In this document: one piece after another, positions 16,732-29,045 of the stretch
How the letters are laid out: every line of letters begins with the position of its first letter
How positions within the stretch are numbered: the stretch's first letter is position 1
DNA from: a bacterium
Lineage (GTDB): Bacteria > Zhuqueibacterota > QNDG01 > JAGLOF01
Reading direction: 5' to 3'
Assembly (NCBI GenBank): GCA_016934955.1
Contig: JAFGRY010000017.1
Location: forward strand, 97,108 to 161,107
DNA: 64,000 nt
The notes under the pieces: model-generated
Seen by the model: the letters and a program-made list of their open reading frames with translations, nothing else
What the model was told of the DNA's origin: nothing
The model's database searches: none
Position numbers and translations under genes: made by a program

Positions 16732-17100
16732 ATGAATCCAATCGTAATCGTCATTATCAATCTGGCCCTGGTGTCTTATTCCATCGGCGTCTGGAGTGAA
16801 CGGATTGCGGGACGTCTTCGTCCGGGCCACCTTGTTTTTTTCTATCTGGGCTTTATCTGTGATACGTGGGGTACGGGTATGATGTTCGGGTCGGCCGGAA
16901 AACTGCTCTTTAATTTTCATGCCCTCACCGGCGTTCTGGCGATCGTGCTGATGGCCGTGCATGCGGTCTGGGCCACGGTGGTCCTGATCAAGAAAGGTGA
17001 AAAATGGATCACCGTATTTCACCGCTTCAGTATCACGGTCTGGGTGATCTGGCTGATTCCCTATTCCGGTCCCATGCTGCTGAGGGTATTTGCAAAATAA
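16732..17100 (+). CDS. HsmA-family (TIGR03987-like) small membrane protein
   Basis: 122 residues with four transmembrane helices (VIVIINLALVSYSIGVW, HLVFFYLGFICDTWGTGMM, HALTGVLAIVLMAVHAVWA, FSITVWVIWLIPYSGP). Histidines in helices three and four (FHALTG, FHRFS) could bind heme, and the layout matches the HsmA family. Function is not established. It ends 95 bases before the first sulfatase gene; the ORF listed at 17090 for that gene overlaps this stop but its extra N-terminus is not credible. Confidence 0.85.
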   Translation: MNPIVIVIINLALVSYSIGVWSERIAGRLRPGHLVFFYLGFICDTWGTGMMFGSAGKLLFNFHALTGVLAIVLMAVHAVWATVVLIKKGEKWITVFHRFSITVWVIWLIPYSGPMLLRVFAK

Positions 17101-17194
17101 CCATCGTGATACATCGTCGGTACCGGTGATCAGCCTGCATACATCGTTCGGCCGGCATACAGTCCGGTACCTGCAACAATGGAGGAAGCCTCAT

Positions 17195-18703
17195 ATGAGT
17201 GATATGCATACGCTTGACAGGCGGTCGTTTCTCAAGGCGGGCGGCGCCGCCCTTGCCGGAATCGCCCTCTCTGGTCCGGGCTGTTTTCGTTCCGGCGGGA
17301 AGCGTCCGAATATCGTCTTCATTCTGGCAGATGACCTTGGATACGGCGATGTGGGATGCTACGGTGCCTCCGCGGTTCCGACACCCAATATCGACCGCCT
17401 GGCCAGGGAAGGAGTACGGTTTACCAGCGGCTACTGTTCGGCTGCCACCTGCACTCCCACCCGGTTTTCACTGCTGACCGGGAAATACGCGTTCCGGCAG
17501 GAGGGCACCGGGGTGGCGGCGCCCAACGCCACGGCGATCATTCAGCCCGGCACGGTAACCCTGCCGTCGCTGCTGAAACAGGCGGGCTATGCCACCGCGG
17601 TCATCGGCAAGTGGCACCTTGGTCTCGGCGAAGGCGAGCAGCCGGACTGGAACGGCGAGCTGAAGCCGGGCCCGCTGGAAATCGGGTTCGACCGCTGTTT
17701 CCTGCTGCCCACCACCAACGACCGGGTGCCCAGTGTCTTCATTGACGATCACCGGGTCAAGGACCTCGATCCCTCGGATCCGCTCTGGGTCAGCCGTGAA
17801 AACCTGGACGGGCAGCCCGACGGAAGCGAACTGAGAGACCGGCTGCGCATGGACTGGAGCGACGGGCATAACTATTCCGTGCACAACGGCATCGGCCGCA
17901 TCTGGTATTTCGGCGGCGGGCACGCGGCCCGCTGGCGGGATGAAGACCTGGCCGATACCTGGGTGAAGGAGTCCGTGCAGTGGATGGAGGAGCAGAAAGA
18001 AAATCCCTTCTTTCTTTATTTCGCCTCTCATGATATTCACGTCCCCCGCATGCCCCATGAGCGCTTTCAGGGCGCAACCAGCCTCGGCTACAGGGGTGAC
18101 GCTATTGTCGAGCTCGACTGGTGCGTGGGGCAGATACTCGCTGCCCTGGACCGCCTGAACCTGACCGGGAATACGCTGGTGATTTTCGCCAGTGACAACG
18201 GCCCGGTGCTGGATGACGGCTACAAGGACGGCGCCGTGGAGCGGCTCGGCGATCACACACCTGCGGGTCCCTACCGGGGCGGGAAGTACAGCGTCTATGA
18301 AGGGGGAACGCACACGCCCTTCATCACCCGCTGGCCCGGCACCATCGCTCCCGGCGAGTCCGATGTCCTGGTGTGCACGATCGATATGGCGGCCAGCCTG
18401 GCCGGCTTCACCGGAGAGAAACTGCCCGCGGGATCCTGCCCCGACAGTTTCGATGTGATGGATGCCCTCCTGGGAAAACCAAACGCACCCGGCAGGGACC
18501 ACCTGGTGGAGGAGGGGAACGGTCTGGCACTGCGCGACCGCGACTGGAAATTCATCCGCTTCCGGGACGGCCGCACGGAACTGTACAATCTCACGGCGGA
18601 TCCGGGAGAGACAATGAATCTTATCGGGACGGAGACGGACAGGGCGGAGGCCATGCGGAAGCGGCTTGAAGAGATAGAGAAGGCGGGGGCGAGCAGAGTG
18701 TAA
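17195..18703 (+). CDS. Tat-exported arylsulfatase-type sulfatase
   Basis: 502 residues from the ATG at 17195 (GGAGGAAGC upstream). A twin-arginine signal is visible: DRRSFLKAGGAALAGIALS. The metal-binding NIVFILADDLGYGDVGCYG follows, then the formylglycine site C86-T-P-T-R in AATCTPTRFSLLTGKY. GKWHLG and FASDNGPVL complete the core, so this is a Cys-type S1 sulfatase with all expected active-site parts. A formylglycine-forming enzyme or anSME is needed for activation; neither is in the window. Substrate class is not predictable, but with the neighbouring rhamnosidases a sulfated polysaccharide is likely. LSGPGC is a poor lipobox. Confidence 0.93.
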   Translation: MSDMHTLDRRSFLKAGGAALAGIALSGPGCFRSGGKRPNIVFILADDLGYGDVGCYGASAVPTPNIDRLAREGVRFTSGYCSAATCTPTRFSLLTGKYAFRQEGTGVAAPNATAIIQPGTVTLPSLLKQAGYATAVIGKWHLGLGEGEQPDWNGELKPGPLEIGFDRCFLLPTTNDRVPSVFIDDHRVKDLDPSDPLWVSRENLDGQPDGSELRDRLRMDWSDGHNYSVHNGIGRIWYFGGGHAARWRDEDLADTWVKESVQWMEEQKENPFFLYFASHDIHVPRMPHERFQGATSLGYRGDAIVELDWCVGQILAALDRLNLTGNTLVIFASDNGPVLDDGYKDGAVERLGDHTPAGPYRGGKYSVYEGGTHTPFITRWPGTIAPGESDVLVCTIDMAASLAGFTGEKLPAGSCPDSFDVMDALLGKPNAPGRDHLVEEGNGLALRDRDWKFIRFRDGRTELYNLTADPGETMNLIGTETDRAEAMRKRLEEIEKAGASRV

Positions 18704-20007: not shown

Positions 20008-21126
20008 ATGAAATACATATGGCTGATCATCGGCTGGTTCTTTACGCTGGTGTTTTCTCTGCTCACTGTCTCAATGATCCTGACCGGAAACATTGGGGCC
20101 GCGGTTCCTGTGTTTCTTTTACTGCTGCTGTCGCTCCCTCCGGTGAGCGGGATGCTGAAGAAACGGGTTCGCAAGCGGTCGCTGTATCACATCCTCAGGC
20201 TGGCACTGATCTTTTTCCTGCTCTTTCTCTTTGCCAGACTGCTGATCGGCGGGGAGGTGACCTCTATTTACAAGAGTCCGGAGGTGAAGGCCGAATTCGT
20301 GCGCATCTACGATGAAAAAATGAAGGAATGGCCGCTCCCCTTTGACGATATATTTCTCGTCACGACATACGGCACCGTTCATGTGATCGCCAGCGGTCCG
20401 GCGGACGCATCTCCGCTGCTGCTGCTGCACGCATCGGGAACAGCCGGCTGGAGCTGGAAATACAATGCGGCGGGCCTCGGCTCCCTCTTCCGGCTCTATG
20501 CGGTCGATCTCATCGGGGATGCGGGAAAGAGTGAACTTGCGGATATGGGGCATGTCATGAAAACGGGGCAGGATCAGGCCGGTCTTTACTGCGAAATCAT
20601 GGACAGCCTCGGGATTCAGTCCGCGTATATCGCCGGGGCATCGGAAGGCGGATTTATCGGCTCCAATATTGCCCTGTATGCCCCGGAACGTGTGCGGAAA
20701 CTCGCGCTGCTGGGGCCCATGGGCTATTCGGGTGCGGCCCAGTCCATATTCCGCATCGCCATCGCCCAGATGTTCCCGTTGAAACCGATCCAGCAAAGTA
20801 CGTTCAGCTGGGCCTTCAGCAACAGCCCCATGCTCGAGAAAGAGTTTGAAACCTGGTTCCCGCTTCTGATGAGTGCCGTGTTCCCGGTAAAGGTGCCGCC
20901 CCTGACCATACCGGAACGGCTCCGCAGCAGCATCAGCGTCCCTGTGATGTTCATTTTCGGCAGCCGGGACAATCTGGTCGGCGATCCTGAAAAGGCACGG
21001 GAACTGGTTCAGGACATCCCCGATGTCCGGGTTCATATTGTGGAAGCGGGCCACCTCATGGCGGCGGAACTGCCGGATGAGGTGAATGCACTGCTGATCG
21101 ATTTTTTCAATGAAACGGAAGAGTGA
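20008..21126 (+). CDS. Alpha/beta hydrolase with N-terminal membrane segment
   Basis: 372 residues, first gene of a likely three-gene operon. AAAGGAGG six bases before the ATG is one of the strongest ribosome-binding sites in the window. Three hydrophobic helices span the first ~85 residues. The hydrolase domain (from about 110) has LLHASGTAGWSWKYNA as the oxyanion loop, nucleophile Ser in GASEGGFIG, an acidic residue in FGSRDNLVGDP and His in AGHLMAAE. The substrate is unknown. It is followed after about 45 bases by the MarR-GNAT gene and then by the B1 beta-lactamase, so hydrolysis or modification of a small xenobiotic is possible but unproven. Confidence 0.9.
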   Translation: MKYIWLIIGWFFTLVFSLLTVSMILTGNIGAAVPVFLLLLLSLPPVSGMLKKRVRKRSLYHILRLALIFFLLFLFARLLIGGEVTSIYKSPEVKAEFVRIYDEKMKEWPLPFDDIFLVTTYGTVHVIASGPADASPLLLLHASGTAGWSWKYNAAGLGSLFRLYAVDLIGDAGKSELADMGHVMKTGQDQAGLYCEIMDSLGIQSAYIAGASEGGFIGSNIALYAPERVRKLALLGPMGYSGAAQSIFRIAIAQMFPLKPIQQSTFSWAFSNSPMLEKEFETWFPLLMSAVFPVKVPPLTIPERLRSSISVPVMFIFGSRDNLVGDPEKARELVQDIPDVRVHIVEAGHLMAAELPDEVNALLIDFFNETEE

Positions 21127-21171
21127 CATGCGGAGGGCCCCCGCGTTGTCCGCCGCTGCAGGATGGATTGC

Positions 21172-22137
21172 ATGGATCTGTTAAAAGATATGGGAGCGCT
21201 GGCGTTTGCCAGCCGCATGAAACGGCTGAGCGACCGTCTCATGGATGATGTCAGAACGCTGTACCGAAGGGTCGACATCGATTTCAATCCCCGCTGGTTC
21301 ACGACTCTCTACACCCTGAGCAATTACGGTTCTTTATCCGTTTCCGATCTTTCTCAGATGATCGGCCTGACCCATACCGCGGTGCATCTGCTGGCCGAGG
21401 AGATGGGCAGGGAGGGTCTGCTGGTCTCGGCAGGAACTTCGCGTGACAGGCGGAAGAGGATTCTGGCACTGACAGAAGAGGGTATGAGTCTGGCCGCGAG
21501 GCTCAGTCCGGTCTGGAAGGCGATCGAGTCGGCCACAGCCGCGCTGATCGAAGAGAGCGGCGTGGATGTGCTGCAGAGTCTTTCGGAAATTGAAGGGTCC
21601 CTCGATGAGGAGGATATGTTCCGCAGGGCGTGGTTCAGACTGAAAAATCGCCCGGGCCTGGATATCAGAATCGAACAGTATCGCCCGGCCTACAAGAAAT
21701 ATTTTGCCTCTCTCAACAGGCAATGGATCGAGGATTATTTTAAAATTGAAGCATATGATGAGAAAGTCCTGAGCGATCCGCGCGCTCATATCCTGAAAAA
21801 GGGCGGCACGATCCTTTTCGCCCTCCTGGATGATGAGGTTGTCGGCACCTGCGCCCTGCTGCGGCACGGGGAGCACAGAGAACTGAGTAAAATGGCGGTG
21901 GAACCGAGAATGCGGGGACTTGGTGTCGGAAGCCGACTCCTTCAGGCGGTGTTCGACCTAGCTGCAGACGAAGGAGTTCCGGAGATCTATCTTCAGACAA
22001 GCAGCACATTGAAAGCGGCGGTGCGTCTCTATAAACACCACGGGTTCAGCGTCATTGAAACGCTGCCCTTTGCTCCGCCAGGGTACAGCCGGGAGAGCAT
22101 CTGCATGGTCTGCCGCGTGACCGATTTTCTCTCATGA
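21172..22137 (+). CDS. MarR-type regulator fused to a GNAT acetyltransferase
   Basis: 321 residues (start at 21172 after AGGATGG; 21163 is also possible). The N-terminal ~150 residues are a MarR winged helix: SVSDLSQMIGLTHTAVHLLAEEM as the recognition region and SRDRRKRILALTEEG as the wing. The C-terminal ~150 residues are a GNAT domain with the acetyl-CoA loop RMRGLGVGSRLLQAVFDLA and KAAVRLYKHHGFSV. MarR-GNAT fusions occur in several phyla and are little studied; the acetylation target could be a drug, a protein or a metabolite. Position between a hydrolase and a B1 beta-lactamase suggests it regulates, or works with, this set. Confidence 0.92.
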   Translation: MDLLKDMGALAFASRMKRLSDRLMDDVRTLYRRVDIDFNPRWFTTLYTLSNYGSLSVSDLSQMIGLTHTAVHLLAEEMGREGLLVSAGTSRDRRKRILALTEEGMSLAARLSPVWKAIESATAALIEESGVDVLQSLSEIEGSLDEEDMFRRAWFRLKNRPGLDIRIEQYRPAYKKYFASLNRQWIEDYFKIEAYDEKVLSDPRAHILKKGGTILFALLDDEVVGTCALLRHGEHRELSKMAVEPRMRGLGVGSRLLQAVFDLAADEGVPEIYLQTSSTLKAAVRLYKHHGFSVIETLPFAPPGYSRESICMVCRVTDFLS

Positions 22138-22162
22138 ATCAGCTGTTGGGGAGTGACGGCAC

Positions 22163-22951
22163 ATGCATACAATGACGGGTGTATTTTCCTGTATTCTCCT
22201 GTGGGCCGCGGCGGTTGCGGGGCAGCAGGCGCAGATCCTTTCCGTCACCCCTGATATTGAACTGATCCCTCTCGATGACGGGTACTACATACACCGGACC
22301 TGGTATGATTTCAATACGGACCGGCGCATGCCCTCCAACGGTCTCCTGCTTGTCAGAAACGGTTTCGCTCTGCTGGTGGATACTCCCAACACCGACGAGC
22401 AGACCGGGGAACTGTACCGGTATGTGCGGGACTCCCTGCGCGCCCGGATCAGTACCGTGATCTGCGGCCATTCCCACAGCGACTGTCTGGGCGGCCTGGG
22501 CTGGCTGCACCGGCGGGGAGTCTCCTCCATCGCGGGTGATAAAACGCGGGCGATCTGCATCGAGCAGGGGCTTCCCGTGCCGGACCGTTCATTCGCCGAT
22601 TCCCTCTCATTGACTTTTGAGGGAGAGCCGGTTTTGTGCGAATACAGCGGCGGCGGCCATACGATTGATAATATCACTGTCTGGTTTCCCGCCTCCCGCA
22701 TTCTCTTCGGCGGCTGCCTGGTAAGAAGCGTGGATGCCCGCACTCTTGGCTTCACCGGAGAAGCGGTCCCGGAGCAGTGGGCGGAGACCATTGCCGTGCT
22801 TCAGGAGAGACATCCTGATGCGCAGACGGTAATCCCCGGGCATGGAGAGCACGGGGGGCCGGCGCTGCTCGATCATACGATCGCCCTGGTTCGCGAGTTT
22901 CTCGGCACGAAGGAAGCTGCCAGCGAAGACAACGCAAAGCACGAAAAATGA
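22163..22951 (+). CDS. Subclass B1 metallo-beta-lactamase
   Basis: 262 residues with a signal peptide (GVFSCILLWAAAVAGQQAQ), so periplasmic. All six zinc ligands of subclass B1 are present: HSHSD (H116, H118, D120), GGGHTIDN (H196), GGCLVRS (C221) and PGHGEHGG (H263). The flanks also fit B1: PSNGLLLV, CLGGLGWLHRRG, VWFPASRILFGG. Position 224 is Arg instead of Lys, and the residue where many B1 enzymes have Asn233 appears to be Phe (LGFTGEA), so substrate contacts may differ. The gene starts 25 bases after the MarR-GNAT stop. The Lys/Glu-rich tail (KEAASEDNAKHEK) overlaps a dispersed repeat. Confidence 0.93.
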   Translation: MHTMTGVFSCILLWAAAVAGQQAQILSVTPDIELIPLDDGYYIHRTWYDFNTDRRMPSNGLLLVRNGFALLVDTPNTDEQTGELYRYVRDSLRARISTVICGHSHSDCLGGLGWLHRRGVSSIAGDKTRAICIEQGLPVPDRSFADSLSLTFEGEPVLCEYSGGGHTIDNITVWFPASRILFGGCLVRSVDARTLGFTGEAVPEQWAETIAVLQERHPDAQTVIPGHGEHGGPALLDHTIALVREFLGTKEAASEDNAKHEK

Positions 22952-23232: not shown

Positions 23233-24780
23233 ATGGAACATATGAACCGCAGAGAGTTCGTTGCGACTGTCGGCGGAGCCGCTGCCGCCGCCCTGGGGGG
23301 CTGCGCGGGGCTGAAAGGAGGGAGAAGGCCAAATATCCTTTTTATCCCCATTGACGATCTGCGAACCGAACTCGGGTGTTATGGCAGAGACCATGTCATC
23401 AGCCCCAATATCGACCGGCTGGCCGCGGGAGGAACCGTTTTCTCCCGGGCTTACTGTCAGTCCGCGGTCTGCAATCCGTCACGGGCGAGCCTGCTCACCG
23501 GAAAACGCCCTGATACCATCAAGGTGCTCGATCTTCACACCGATTTGCGGGATGTCAGCCCTGATGTGGTGACGCTGCCCCAGTATTTCCGGCGGCACGG
23601 ATACTACACCGCCAGTATCGGCAAGATCTATCACAATATATTCCCCGATGAAACCTCCTGGGACGAGCGGAAATATCTGGACGGATTTCCATTCGATCCC
23701 GACGCCGTCTATCTGGGCGACGAGGGAAAGGCGATACAGGAACAGAGAAAACAGCGGCTGGCAGCCGCCGGCAGGGCGGAGCAGCGAAAGGACCGGTTCG
23801 GCCATTTTTATCTCAAGGCCCAGGCAACGGAGGCGCCGGATGTGCCGGACAATGCCTACTACGACGGCGCCCAGACGGACTGGGCGGTTGAGAAGCTGAA
23901 GGAATTGAAGGAGCGAACCCAGCCCTTCTTTCTCGCGGTGGGCTATTATCGTCCCCATCTTCCCTTCAATGCTCCGAAGAAATACTGGGATCTCTACGAC
24001 CGCCGCACCATTCCCCTGGCTGAGAATGATTTCATTCCCAAGAATGTGCCGCCTATGGCGATGAACAACCTGCGTGAATTACGGGGCTACACCGACTTCG
24101 CCCGTCATGGAATGCCCCATGAAGACCGGCTGAGCGAAGCCGAGGCCCGGCTGCTCAAGCACGGGTATCTGGCTTCCGTGAGTTATATCGACGCCCAGAT
24201 AGGACGGCTGCTCGACACGCTGGACGAGACGGGCCTGGCGGGCAACACGATCGTCGTGCTCTGGGGGGACCACGGCTGGAAACTGGGTGAGCACAACAGC
24301 TGGTGCAAGATGACCAATTTTGACGTCGATACGCATGTTCCGCTCATTTTCAAGGTCCCCGGTGCGGCGGCATGCGGCAGGCAGTCGGCGGCGTTCGTGG
24401 AGTTCGTGGATATATACCCGACCCTCTGCGAGCTGGCCCGCCTGCCGGTCCCCGCCGATATGGAAGGGCTGAGCATGAAGCCCCTGCTCGGAAATCCCGA
24501 CCTGCCGTGGAAGTCCGCGGTATTCAGCCAGTTCCTGAGAGAGGGCGGTTGGGTCGGTCCGGACGGCAGGGAGTATAACGGCTACTCGATCCGCACCGAC
24601 CGCTACCGGTACGGAGAATGGTATCATCGCGACACCCGGGAGATTGCCGGTGTCGAGCTCTACGACCATGCATCCGATCCCGGCGAGAATGAGAATATCG
24701 CGTCCCGGCCGGAAAACGCGGCGCTGGTACAAGAGCTTTCGGGGCGGCTGCAGGCCGGGTGGAAGGCGGCGCTTCCCTGA
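23233..24780 (+). CDS. Iduronate-2-sulfatase-like Tat lipoprotein sulfatase
   Basis: 515 residues. GGAGG lies eight bases before the ATG. The N-terminus has a Tat motif followed by a lipobox (NRREFVATVGGAAAAALGGC), so it is probably a Tat-exported lipoprotein. Core motifs: NILFIPIDDLRTELGCYG (metal), then C80-N-P-S-R (formylglycine site) in CQSAVCNPSRASLLTGKRPD, GKIYH, YRPHLPF and LWGDHGWKLGEH. This pattern fits the iduronate-2-sulfatase group, whose bacterial members also desulfate marine and plant polysaccharides. Together with the sulfatase at 17195 it gives two formylglycine sulfatases of different type. Activation by a maturase encoded elsewhere is required. Confidence 0.93.
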   Translation: MEHMNRREFVATVGGAAAAALGGCAGLKGGRRPNILFIPIDDLRTELGCYGRDHVISPNIDRLAAGGTVFSRAYCQSAVCNPSRASLLTGKRPDTIKVLDLHTDLRDVSPDVVTLPQYFRRHGYYTASIGKIYHNIFPDETSWDERKYLDGFPFDPDAVYLGDEGKAIQEQRKQRLAAAGRAEQRKDRFGHFYLKAQATEAPDVPDNAYYDGAQTDWAVEKLKELKERTQPFFLAVGYYRPHLPFNAPKKYWDLYDRRTIPLAENDFIPKNVPPMAMNNLRELRGYTDFARHGMPHEDRLSEAEARLLKHGYLASVSYIDAQIGRLLDTLDETGLAGNTIVVLWGDHGWKLGEHNSWCKMTNFDVDTHVPLIFKVPGAAACGRQSAAFVEFVDIYPTLCELARLPVPADMEGLSMKPLLGNPDLPWKSAVFSQFLREGGWVGPDGREYNGYSIRTDRYRYGEWYHRDTREIAGVELYDHASDPGENENIASRPENAALVQELSGRLQAGWKAALP

Positions 24781-26217: not shown

Positions 26218-26285
26218 CGGTCCTTATTCCTATCGGTGTCAGCACATGTAGACGTATCCTTAAGAACTTGGTGTTGGAGACAGGT

Positions 26286-29045
26286 ATGAAAAATCGAGTG
26301 TCGTTTTTCCTGCTGCTGTCCGGAGCGGTACTCATTGCCGGCGCCGGCCGGTCCGCGGCTGTATCGCAGAAGAAATCCGGGGCCGGAGTCGTGCATCCGC
26401 GCACGGAATACAGAGTCAATCCTCTGGGAATCGATGTGGAGCAGCCGCGGCTCAGCTGGGAAATCCTCTCGGAGCGGCGGGGAACGCTGCAGTCCGCCTA
26501 TGAGATTCAGGCGTCCGTCACGGCCGCCGGCCTGGGCCGGAAAGGAGCGATGATCTGGGAGACAGGAAAGGTCGAATCCGACAGATCCATCCAGGTGCGG
26601 TATGAGGGGCCGCCCCCGGGTTCGGGCGAACGTGTCTACTGGCGGGTCCGTGTCTGGACCGGAGACGGTGAGCCGTCCCCCTGGAGTGACCCGGCCTGGT
26701 GGGAGGCGGGCCTTGCCGCCGCCGCATGGCAGGCGGAATGGATCGCGCCTCCCTGGGAGGAGGACACGCTCTCTTCGCAGCCATGTCCCTATCTGCGCCG
26801 TGAGTTCAGCGTCGGGCCGGGCCTGGTGCGGGCGAGGCTGTACGCGACCGCCCACGGGCTCTACCATATGCGGTTGAACGGGCGGGCGGTTGCCGACTGG
26901 CTGCTGACTCCGGGCTGGACCAGCTATAACAAACGGCTTCAGTACCAGACCTACGACGTCGGCGGCCTGCTGCGCCGGGGAGAGAACTGCCTGGGGGCAA
27001 TTCTCGGAGACGGCTGGTACCGGGGCTATCTCGGCTGGCAGGACAAGCGTAACAATTACGGCACGGATGTGGCCCTGCTGGCGGAACTCCACCTGCGGTA
27101 CCGGGACGGACACACTGAAGTGATCCGCAGCGACGGATCCTGGCTGGCTGCAACCGGTCCCATTCTCAGCTCCGATATCTACCATGGCGAGACCTGCGAC
27201 GCCCGCCTCGAAATGGAGGGGTGGGATGCCCCGGGATTCGCCGCCGGGGACTGGGCGGCGGTTACAACCGCTGTGTACCCCAAGAATCATCTCATCGCCC
27301 AGAACGGTCCCGCGGTTCGTCCCATGCTCGAGGTTGAGCCGGTTGCCATTATTCGAACGCCGCGGGGGGAGACGGTGTATGATTTCGGCCAGAATATGGT
27401 GGGGCACGTGCGCCTGCGGGTCTCCGGACCCGCCGGCACGGAGATCACCATCCGACATGCCGAAGTGCTTGACCGAGAGGGCAATTTCTATACCGGCAAC
27501 CTGCGGGTGGCCAAACAGACCGTCCGCTACATTCTCAAGGGAGAGGGTGTCGAAATCTATGAACCCCGTTTCACGTTTCAGGGTTTCCGCTATGCGGCGG
27601 TAGAAGGGCTCCCCGGGGAGCCGTCCCTCACGCATCTGACCGGCATCGTCACGTACTCGGACATGGAGCGGACCGGTACGTTCTCCTGTTCGGATTCACT
27701 GATAACCCGTTTGCAGGAGAATATCGTCTGGGGGCAGCGGGGCAATTTTCTCGACGTCCCCACCGACTGTCCGCAGCGGGATGAACGCATGGGCTGGACC
27801 GGCGACGCCCAGGTGTTCGCGCCCACGGCCTGCTTCAATATGGACGTGGCCGCGTTTTTTACCAAATGGCTGGGCGATCTTGCCGCTGACCAGCAGGAGG
27901 ACGGCGCGGTTCCCTGGGTGGTCCCTGATGTGCTGGGAGGAGCGGGTTCGGCCGCCTGGGCCGATGCCGCGGTGATCGTCCCCTGGGTTATGTATCAGTC
28001 CTATGGAGACGTTGAGATCCTGCGGCGGCAGTATGACAGCATGCGCAGATGGGTCGAATGCATGCGCGGGAGGGCCGGCGATGACCTGCTCTGGACCGGC
28101 GGCTCTCATTTCGGCGATTGGCTGGCGTACGCCACCACCCGATCCGACTATCCGGGGGCGACCACCGAGAAGGACCTGATTGCCACGGCGTTTTTCGCCC
28201 ATTCCACCGAGCTGCTGGCACGAAGCGCCGCGATCCTCGGCCGCGGGGAGGAAGCCGCTGCCTATGCGGGCCTTGCCGGCCGGATCAAAGCGGCATTCTG
28301 CGATGAATTCGTCACGCCCAACGGGCGTCTTGTTTCCCATACACAGACCGCCTACGCCCTGGCCCTCGCATTCAATCTTCTGCCCGAGGAGCGCCGGCAG
28401 CAGGCGGCGGATTATCTCGCCGCCGATGTCAGAAAATTCGGGCACCTGACAACCGGTTTCGTGGGCACGCCCCTGCTCTGCCCCGTCCTTTCGGATTACG
28501 GACACACCGATCTGGCCTACCGGCTGCTGATGCGCAGGGCGTATCCTTCCTGGCTCTATCCGGTCACCATGGGCGCGACGACCATCTGGGAGCGCTGGGA
28601 CGGCATCAGGACAGACGGCAGTTTCCAGGACGAAGGCATGAATTCATTCAACCATTACGCCTACGGGGCCATCGGCCAGTGGCTCTACAGCAGGGCCGCC
28701 GGCCTCAGGATCGATCCGGAGCACCCGGGCTACAAGCATATACTCTTTCACCCGGAGCCGGGCGGCGGTTTGACGCGCGCGTCGGCTTCCCTGCATACAC
28801 TGTACGGTGCGGCCCGTTCGGCCTGGAAGATCGAAGACGGCACGCTCGTGTATGAAGTGATGATCCCACCGAACAGCACCGGCTCGGTGGTGCTCGAGCA
28901 TACGACCGTCGACGATGTCACGCTGGATTCACACCCCCTGGGAACGATGCGCCCGTCTCCGGACTGCCGTCAGGAAGCAGACCGGGTTGTTGTCACCATC
29001 GGATCCGGGGCGTACACCTTCCGCTGTCCCTGGAGCGCAGAGTGA
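26286..29045 (+). CDS. GH78 alpha-L-rhamnosidase
   Basis: About 919 residues. The start at 26286 gives a clean signal peptide (MKNRVSFFLLLSGAVLIAGAGRSAA); the listed 26268 start adds an extra MVLETG. Domain order: N-terminal beta-sandwiches (TEYRVNPLGIDVEQPRLSWEI, then YDFGQNMVGHVRLRV), then the alpha/alpha-barrel with the GH78 signature DCPQRDERMGWTGDAQVF, WERWDG and NHYAYGAIGQWLY. The catalytic acidic residues lie in the RDER and WERWD motifs. The enzyme releases terminal alpha-L-rhamnose from pectin, ulvan-like or plant glycosides, outside or in the periplasm. An NCS1-type permease gene follows after 27 bases, suggesting an operon. Confidence 0.95.
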   Translation: MKNRVSFFLLLSGAVLIAGAGRSAAVSQKKSGAGVVHPRTEYRVNPLGIDVEQPRLSWEILSERRGTLQSAYEIQASVTAAGLGRKGAMIWETGKVESDRSIQVRYEGPPPGSGERVYWRVRVWTGDGEPSPWSDPAWWEAGLAAAAWQAEWIAPPWEEDTLSSQPCPYLRREFSVGPGLVRARLYATAHGLYHMRLNGRAVADWLLTPGWTSYNKRLQYQTYDVGGLLRRGENCLGAILGDGWYRGYLGWQDKRNNYGTDVALLAELHLRYRDGHTEVIRSDGSWLAATGPILSSDIYHGETCDARLEMEGWDAPGFAAGDWAAVTTAVYPKNHLIAQNGPAVRPMLEVEPVAIIRTPRGETVYDFGQNMVGHVRLRVSGPAGTEITIRHAEVLDREGNFYTGNLRVAKQTVRYILKGEGVEIYEPRFTFQGFRYAAVEGLPGEPSLTHLTGIVTYSDMERTGTFSCSDSLITRLQENIVWGQRGNFLDVPTDCPQRDERMGWTGDAQVFAPTACFNMDVAAFFTKWLGDLAADQQEDGAVPWVVPDVLGGAGSAAWADAAVIVPWVMYQSYGDVEILRRQYDSMRRWVECMRGRAGDDLLWTGGSHFGDWLAYATTRSDYPGATTEKDLIATAFFAHSTELLARSAAILGRGEEAAAYAGLAGRIKAAFCDEFVTPNGRLVSHTQTAYALALAFNLLPEERRQQAADYLAADVRKFGHLTTGFVGTPLLCPVLSDYGHTDLAYRLLMRRAYPSWLYPVTMGATTIWERWDGIRTDGSFQDEGMNSFNHYAYGAIGQWLYSRAAGLRIDPEHPGYKHILFHPEPGGGLTRASASLHTLYGAARSAWKIEDGTLVYEVMIPPNSTGSVVLEHTTVDDVTLDSHPLGTMRPSPDCRQEADRVVVTIGSGAYTFRCPWSAE

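Follow-up and report, generated by a model that had tools for sequence, protein, structure and literature searches.

The B1 gene and its surroundings

The window, that is the whole 64,000-nucleotide stretch of DNA analysed here, comes from an uncultured environmental bacterium of the phylum KSB1. This phylum belongs to FCB, which fits the uncultivated FCB-type host proposed in the initial annotation. The window carries an open reading frame that has a Shine-Dalgarno-like sequence, GGGGAG, 9 nt upstream of its start codon and is confirmed at the sequence level as a complete subclass B1 metallo-beta-lactamase gene (Table 1). The initial annotation had already named it so, and the reading frame, the six zinc ligands, the curated profile NF033088.2 and the phylogeny all bear this out. 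The signal peptide that it had also proposed is supported by a hydrophobicity peak over approximately residues 4 to 19 and by the AlphaFold2 model, in which the low-confidence N-terminus forms a helix at residues 4-19. This predicted peptide, in which no lipobox was recognised, is of the Sec type. The open reading frames overlapping the gene on the opposite strand (22139-22510 and others) are considered mechanical, coding evidence having been neither sought nor found. The GC content of the gene (60%) is like that of its neighbors (55-64%); base composition therefore does not mark it as recently acquired.

Table 1. Features of the B1 locus, in window coordinates; residues are given in B1 numbering, with protein numbering in brackets.
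Feature	Position	Strand	Evidence
Alpha/beta hydrolase, hydrophobic N-terminus	20008..21126	+	Pfam Abhydrolase_6
MarR-type HTH and GNAT acetyltransferase protein	21163..22137	+	Pfam
Subclass B1 metallo-beta-lactamase gene	22163..22951	+	ATG at 22163, stop ending at 22951, 262 codons (262 aa); NF033088.2 score, tree, pLDDT 94 model, CcrA fold match
Predicted signal peptide MHTMTGVFSCILLWAAAVAGQ	22163..22225	+	Residues 1-21 approximately; hydropathy, model; putative cleavage site
HSHSD with ligands H116, H118, D120 (H103-S-H105-S-D107)	22469..22483	+	Alignment with CcrA, IMP-1, VIM-2, NDM-1
Ligand H196 (H166)	22658..22660	+	Alignment
Ligand C221 (C185) through R224 (R188)	22715..22726	+	Alignment
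F233 (F197), usually Asn	22751..22753	+	Alignment
Ligand H263 (H227)	22841..22843	+	Alignment

Two genes precede the B1 gene, and the MarR_2 match of the nearer one is marginal (26.9 bits for a cut-off of 27). A single operon is possible, because the three genes share a strand with gaps of 36 bp between the alpha/beta hydrolase and MarR-GNAT genes and 25 bp between the latter and the B1 gene. Neither of the two was found beside B1 genes elsewhere. A role of the MarR-GNAT protein as a conserved B1 regulator was rejected, since the six genomes of the phylum with MarR-GNAT and the nine with a B1 gene overlap only in the window's genome. The same genome encodes a paralogue of this protein (41%) at another locus (G000:C47). 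Also near the B1 gene are two sulfatases and an alpha-L-rhamnosidase (17090-18703, 23233-24780 and 26268-29045), which suggest a sulfated-polysaccharide-degrading lifestyle. These neighbors, like the alpha/beta hydrolase, give no hint of resistance. The flanking genes examined showed no sign of a mobile element, and no RNA family was found in the window.

Zinc ligands and active-site residues

The residues of the protein, hereafter the KSB1 protein, were read from an alignment with CfiA2, IMP-1, VIM-2, NDM-1 and about 60 other sequences. The six B1 zinc ligands are complete, both the Zn1 set (H116, H118 and H196) and the Zn2 set (D120, C221 and H263), and the second-shell residues S69 and D84, read from the sequence and numbered by analogy with NDM-1, are conserved. 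S117 and S119 are read directly, and position 121 is a Cys (protein C108), as in CcrA. Position 87, occupied by Trp in many B1 enzymes and by Ile in CcrA, is an Asn (protein N76); the initial annotation was silent on N87 and C121. It had reported Arg at 224 and Phe at 233, and the alignment agrees, R188 aligning with K224 and F197 with N233. The common B1 residues K224 and N233 are thus absent, but they do not define the subclass, because VIM-2 has Y224 and several B1 enzymes have Tyr or Phe at 233.

Family assignment and phylogeny

The curated B1 model of NCBIfam, NF033088.2, matches the KSB1 protein with 236.8 bits (E 2e-70), above its cut-off of 200. The CcrA/CfiA allele model NF000322.2 (194.1 bits for a cut-off of 550) and the B1 'long type' model NF041269.1 (176 bits for a cut-off of 350) stay below theirs, and the same holds for every named allele family displayed in this profile search. 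Among solved structures, those of CcrA/CfiA are the closest in sequence (E 1e-58). The AlphaFold2 model, built with an alignment of 42 B1 sequences (pLDDT 94, pTM 0.88), has the B1 fold with a CcrA-like architecture. Its best PDB matches are CcrA structures, with an rmsd of 0.9-1.0 A over about 225 columns and a TM-score normalised by target of 0.96-0.98, followed by a Dyadobacter CcrA-like structure, CJO-1 and CIM-2.

The initial annotation had proposed a B1 phylogeny as a check, a placement outside B1 counting against it. In a maximum-likelihood tree whose outgroups are superfamily hydrolases of the host's phylum and which contains no B2 or B3 reference, the KSB1 protein is nested within B1, sharing a 31-row clade with CfiA (support 100/99). 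Within this clade it belongs to a mostly environmental 11-row clade (99/98; 100/97 with the outgroups removed), whose members come from Bacteroidota, Ignavibacteriota, Calditrichota and Thermodesulfobacteriota besides the window. The nearest relative found, at 51% identity, is encoded by a Melioribacteraceae MAG (L022, Ignavibacteriota), with weak support as the exact sister (96/33). It shares S117 and C121 and has GYI at 232-234, but differs by K224 and has no gene neighborhood in common. By the 70% identity criterion that Berglund et al. use (PMC5637372), the KSB1 protein counts as a family of its own relative to all sequences found here.

Among named enzymes, CcrA/CfiA of Bacteroides fragilis (group B1-3, Berglund et al. 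2017) has in common with the KSB1 protein the six ligands, C121, G262, the length, the active-site flap, the fold (about 1.0 A) and the major clade. Their identity is about 37-40%, and the changes from CcrA to the KSB1 protein include K224R, N233F, I87N, W117S and G119S. NDM-1, IMP-1 and VIM-2 share the subclass B1 ligands and fold, but belong to other clades at 25-31% identity. R224, an aromatic residue at 233 and T234 recur together in SHD-1 of Shewanella denitrificans and in three gammaproteobacterial proteins (L049, L053 and L060), all of which have R121 in contrast to C121. SHD-1 itself is absent from the tree; the three others group with IMP-1 in a different B1 clade, and two of them (L053 and L060) are 33-35% identical to the KSB1 protein. 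The residues shared with these three appear to be of independent origin. Over the 54 B1 sequences on the tree, R224 needs at least six changes and F/Y233 at least seven. Nine sequences carry the former, ten the latter and five both; coupled evolution of the two looks suggestive by eye, but the tree gives it no significant support (sign test, median p 1). The KSB1 protein is a distant new member of a well-known family of zinc enzymes that break down penicillin- and carbapenem-type antibiotics, its unusual residues being already known in working relatives.

Two natural B1 sequences of different subclades carry Asp in place of C221, one from Dysgonomonas alginatilytica (L031:2993-3679) and one from a Sedimentisphaerales MAG (L039:4001-4720). 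The motifs AGDVLK and GGDLVR are listed for them, and both pass the NCBI B1 cut-off despite this Asp (265.6 and 248.2 bits).

Distribution in the phylum KSB1

A B1-like gene is present in nine of the 82 genomes of the phylum. It is of the short type in only three (G000, G018 and G058), while in the six others the best match covers only the C-terminal part. Four of these six (L006-L009) were included in the tree, where they form a separate deep B1 branch characterized by HFHxD(N/C) and by some 30 extra residues inserted ahead of H196; L006 barely passes the B1 model (200.6 bits for a cut-off of 200). Monophyly of the three short-type proteins is rejected (AU p 1e-7), and this scatter points to transfer of the gene between phyla, or to many losses. 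The B1 gene was not found in phages, and the plasmid records found were all below 60% identity to the protein, those listed being known B1 families. The literature search returned no paper on KSB1 beta-lactamases and no characterised beta-lactamase for the phylum.

Function of the KSB1 protein

The favored reading, with a probability of about 0.93, is that of a chromosomal, secreted (periplasmic) dizinc B1 beta-lactamase of the CcrA side, guarding the penicillin-binding proteins of its host. Zn1 would be held by H116, H118 and H196 and Zn2 by D120, C221 and H263, a bridging hydroxide would attack the beta-lactam carbonyl, and R224 would replace K224 in binding the substrate carboxylate. The host's penicillin-binding proteins would thereby be protected from environmental beta-lactams. 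The host genome encodes three transpeptidase-domain proteins, and targets of beta-lactams therefore exist in this organism. Its substrates probably include penicillins and at least some cephalosporins. It is probably a carbapenemase as well, with an activity that may be lowered by R224 and F233.

How far it is lowered is the subject of a sub-case within the same family, a B1-fold penicillinase/cephalosporinase with little carbapenemase activity, which is considered rather unlikely. In NDM-1, the substrate carboxylate is bound by K224, and N233 makes contact with both the carbonyl and the newly formed carboxylate (PMC6207675). K224R and N233Q, single or double, keep ampicillin and much cefotaxime activity and lower the imipenem kcat/KM, which drops about 20-fold in K224R/N233Q, from 3.71 to 0.17 per uM per s (PMC6207675). 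For CJO-1, it has been suggested that Y233 makes the hydrolysis intermediate less stable (PMC12326980). SHD-1, however, with R224, Y233 and T234, hydrolyses penicillins, cephalosporins and carbapenems and strongly increases carbapenem MICs in E. coli (64-, 4- and 1024-fold for ertapenem, imipenem and meropenem), even if the purified enzyme has low activity (PMC7443720). Imipenem was also hydrolysed by 18 of the 21 novel B1 genes tested by Berglund et al. (PMC5637372). The literature search found no tests of F233 itself, as opposed to Tyr, Gln or His, or of N87. A somewhat reduced carbapenem turnover is plausible with R224 and F233, and the unusual combination of N87, S117, S119, R224 and F233 could lower activity. 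A shift of preference caused by R224, F233 and N87 together, toward penicillins or another native substrate with little carbapenemase activity, is doubtful. GIM-1, with Tyr at 233 according to PDB titles, is a clinical carbapenemase and, like SHD-1, speaks against the penicillinase/cephalosporinase sub-case.

The initial annotation had suggested that a divergent enzyme with these residues might have a different substrate. This suggestion is weak: R224 and F233 are no argument for a non-beta-lactam substrate, because SHD-1 is active with R224 and Y233 and both changes recur across B1. A primary native role other than antibiotic defence, e.g. in cell-wall or sulfated-glycan turnover, is very improbable for this B1 enzyme. 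The neighboring sulfatases, alpha/beta hydrolase and alpha-L-rhamnosidase would favor it, but no conserved gene neighborhood was found beside 52 related loci. The one exception is in L055 (Acidobacteriota chromosome CP070717.1), where a sulfatase-like stretch ends a short way upstream of the B1 match; the B1-like frame there appears broken, a single frame holding no more than the C-terminal 116 aa. If the KSB1 protein were instead another metallo-hydrolase from the broader superfamily (lactonase, glyoxalase-like or RNase) with only a resemblance to B1, this would account for the Pfam match, which is only to the general PF00753, but this reading is as good as ruled out by C221 with H196 and H263 in B1 order, by the curated B1 model and by a position far inside B1 in a tree with superfamily outgroups.

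Significance

With the beta-lactamase reading, the phyla that host B1 enzymes come to include KSB1. Since no mobile context was found, the gene gives no cause for clinical alarm. Its scattered distribution and its mixed-phylum relatives support the idea that CcrA-side B1 genes form an old reservoir in the environment and move between phyla. The KSB1 protein also joins the small set of natural enzymes combining R224 with an aromatic residue at 233, a set that tests how the L10 loop tunes carbapenem versus penicillin hydrolysis.
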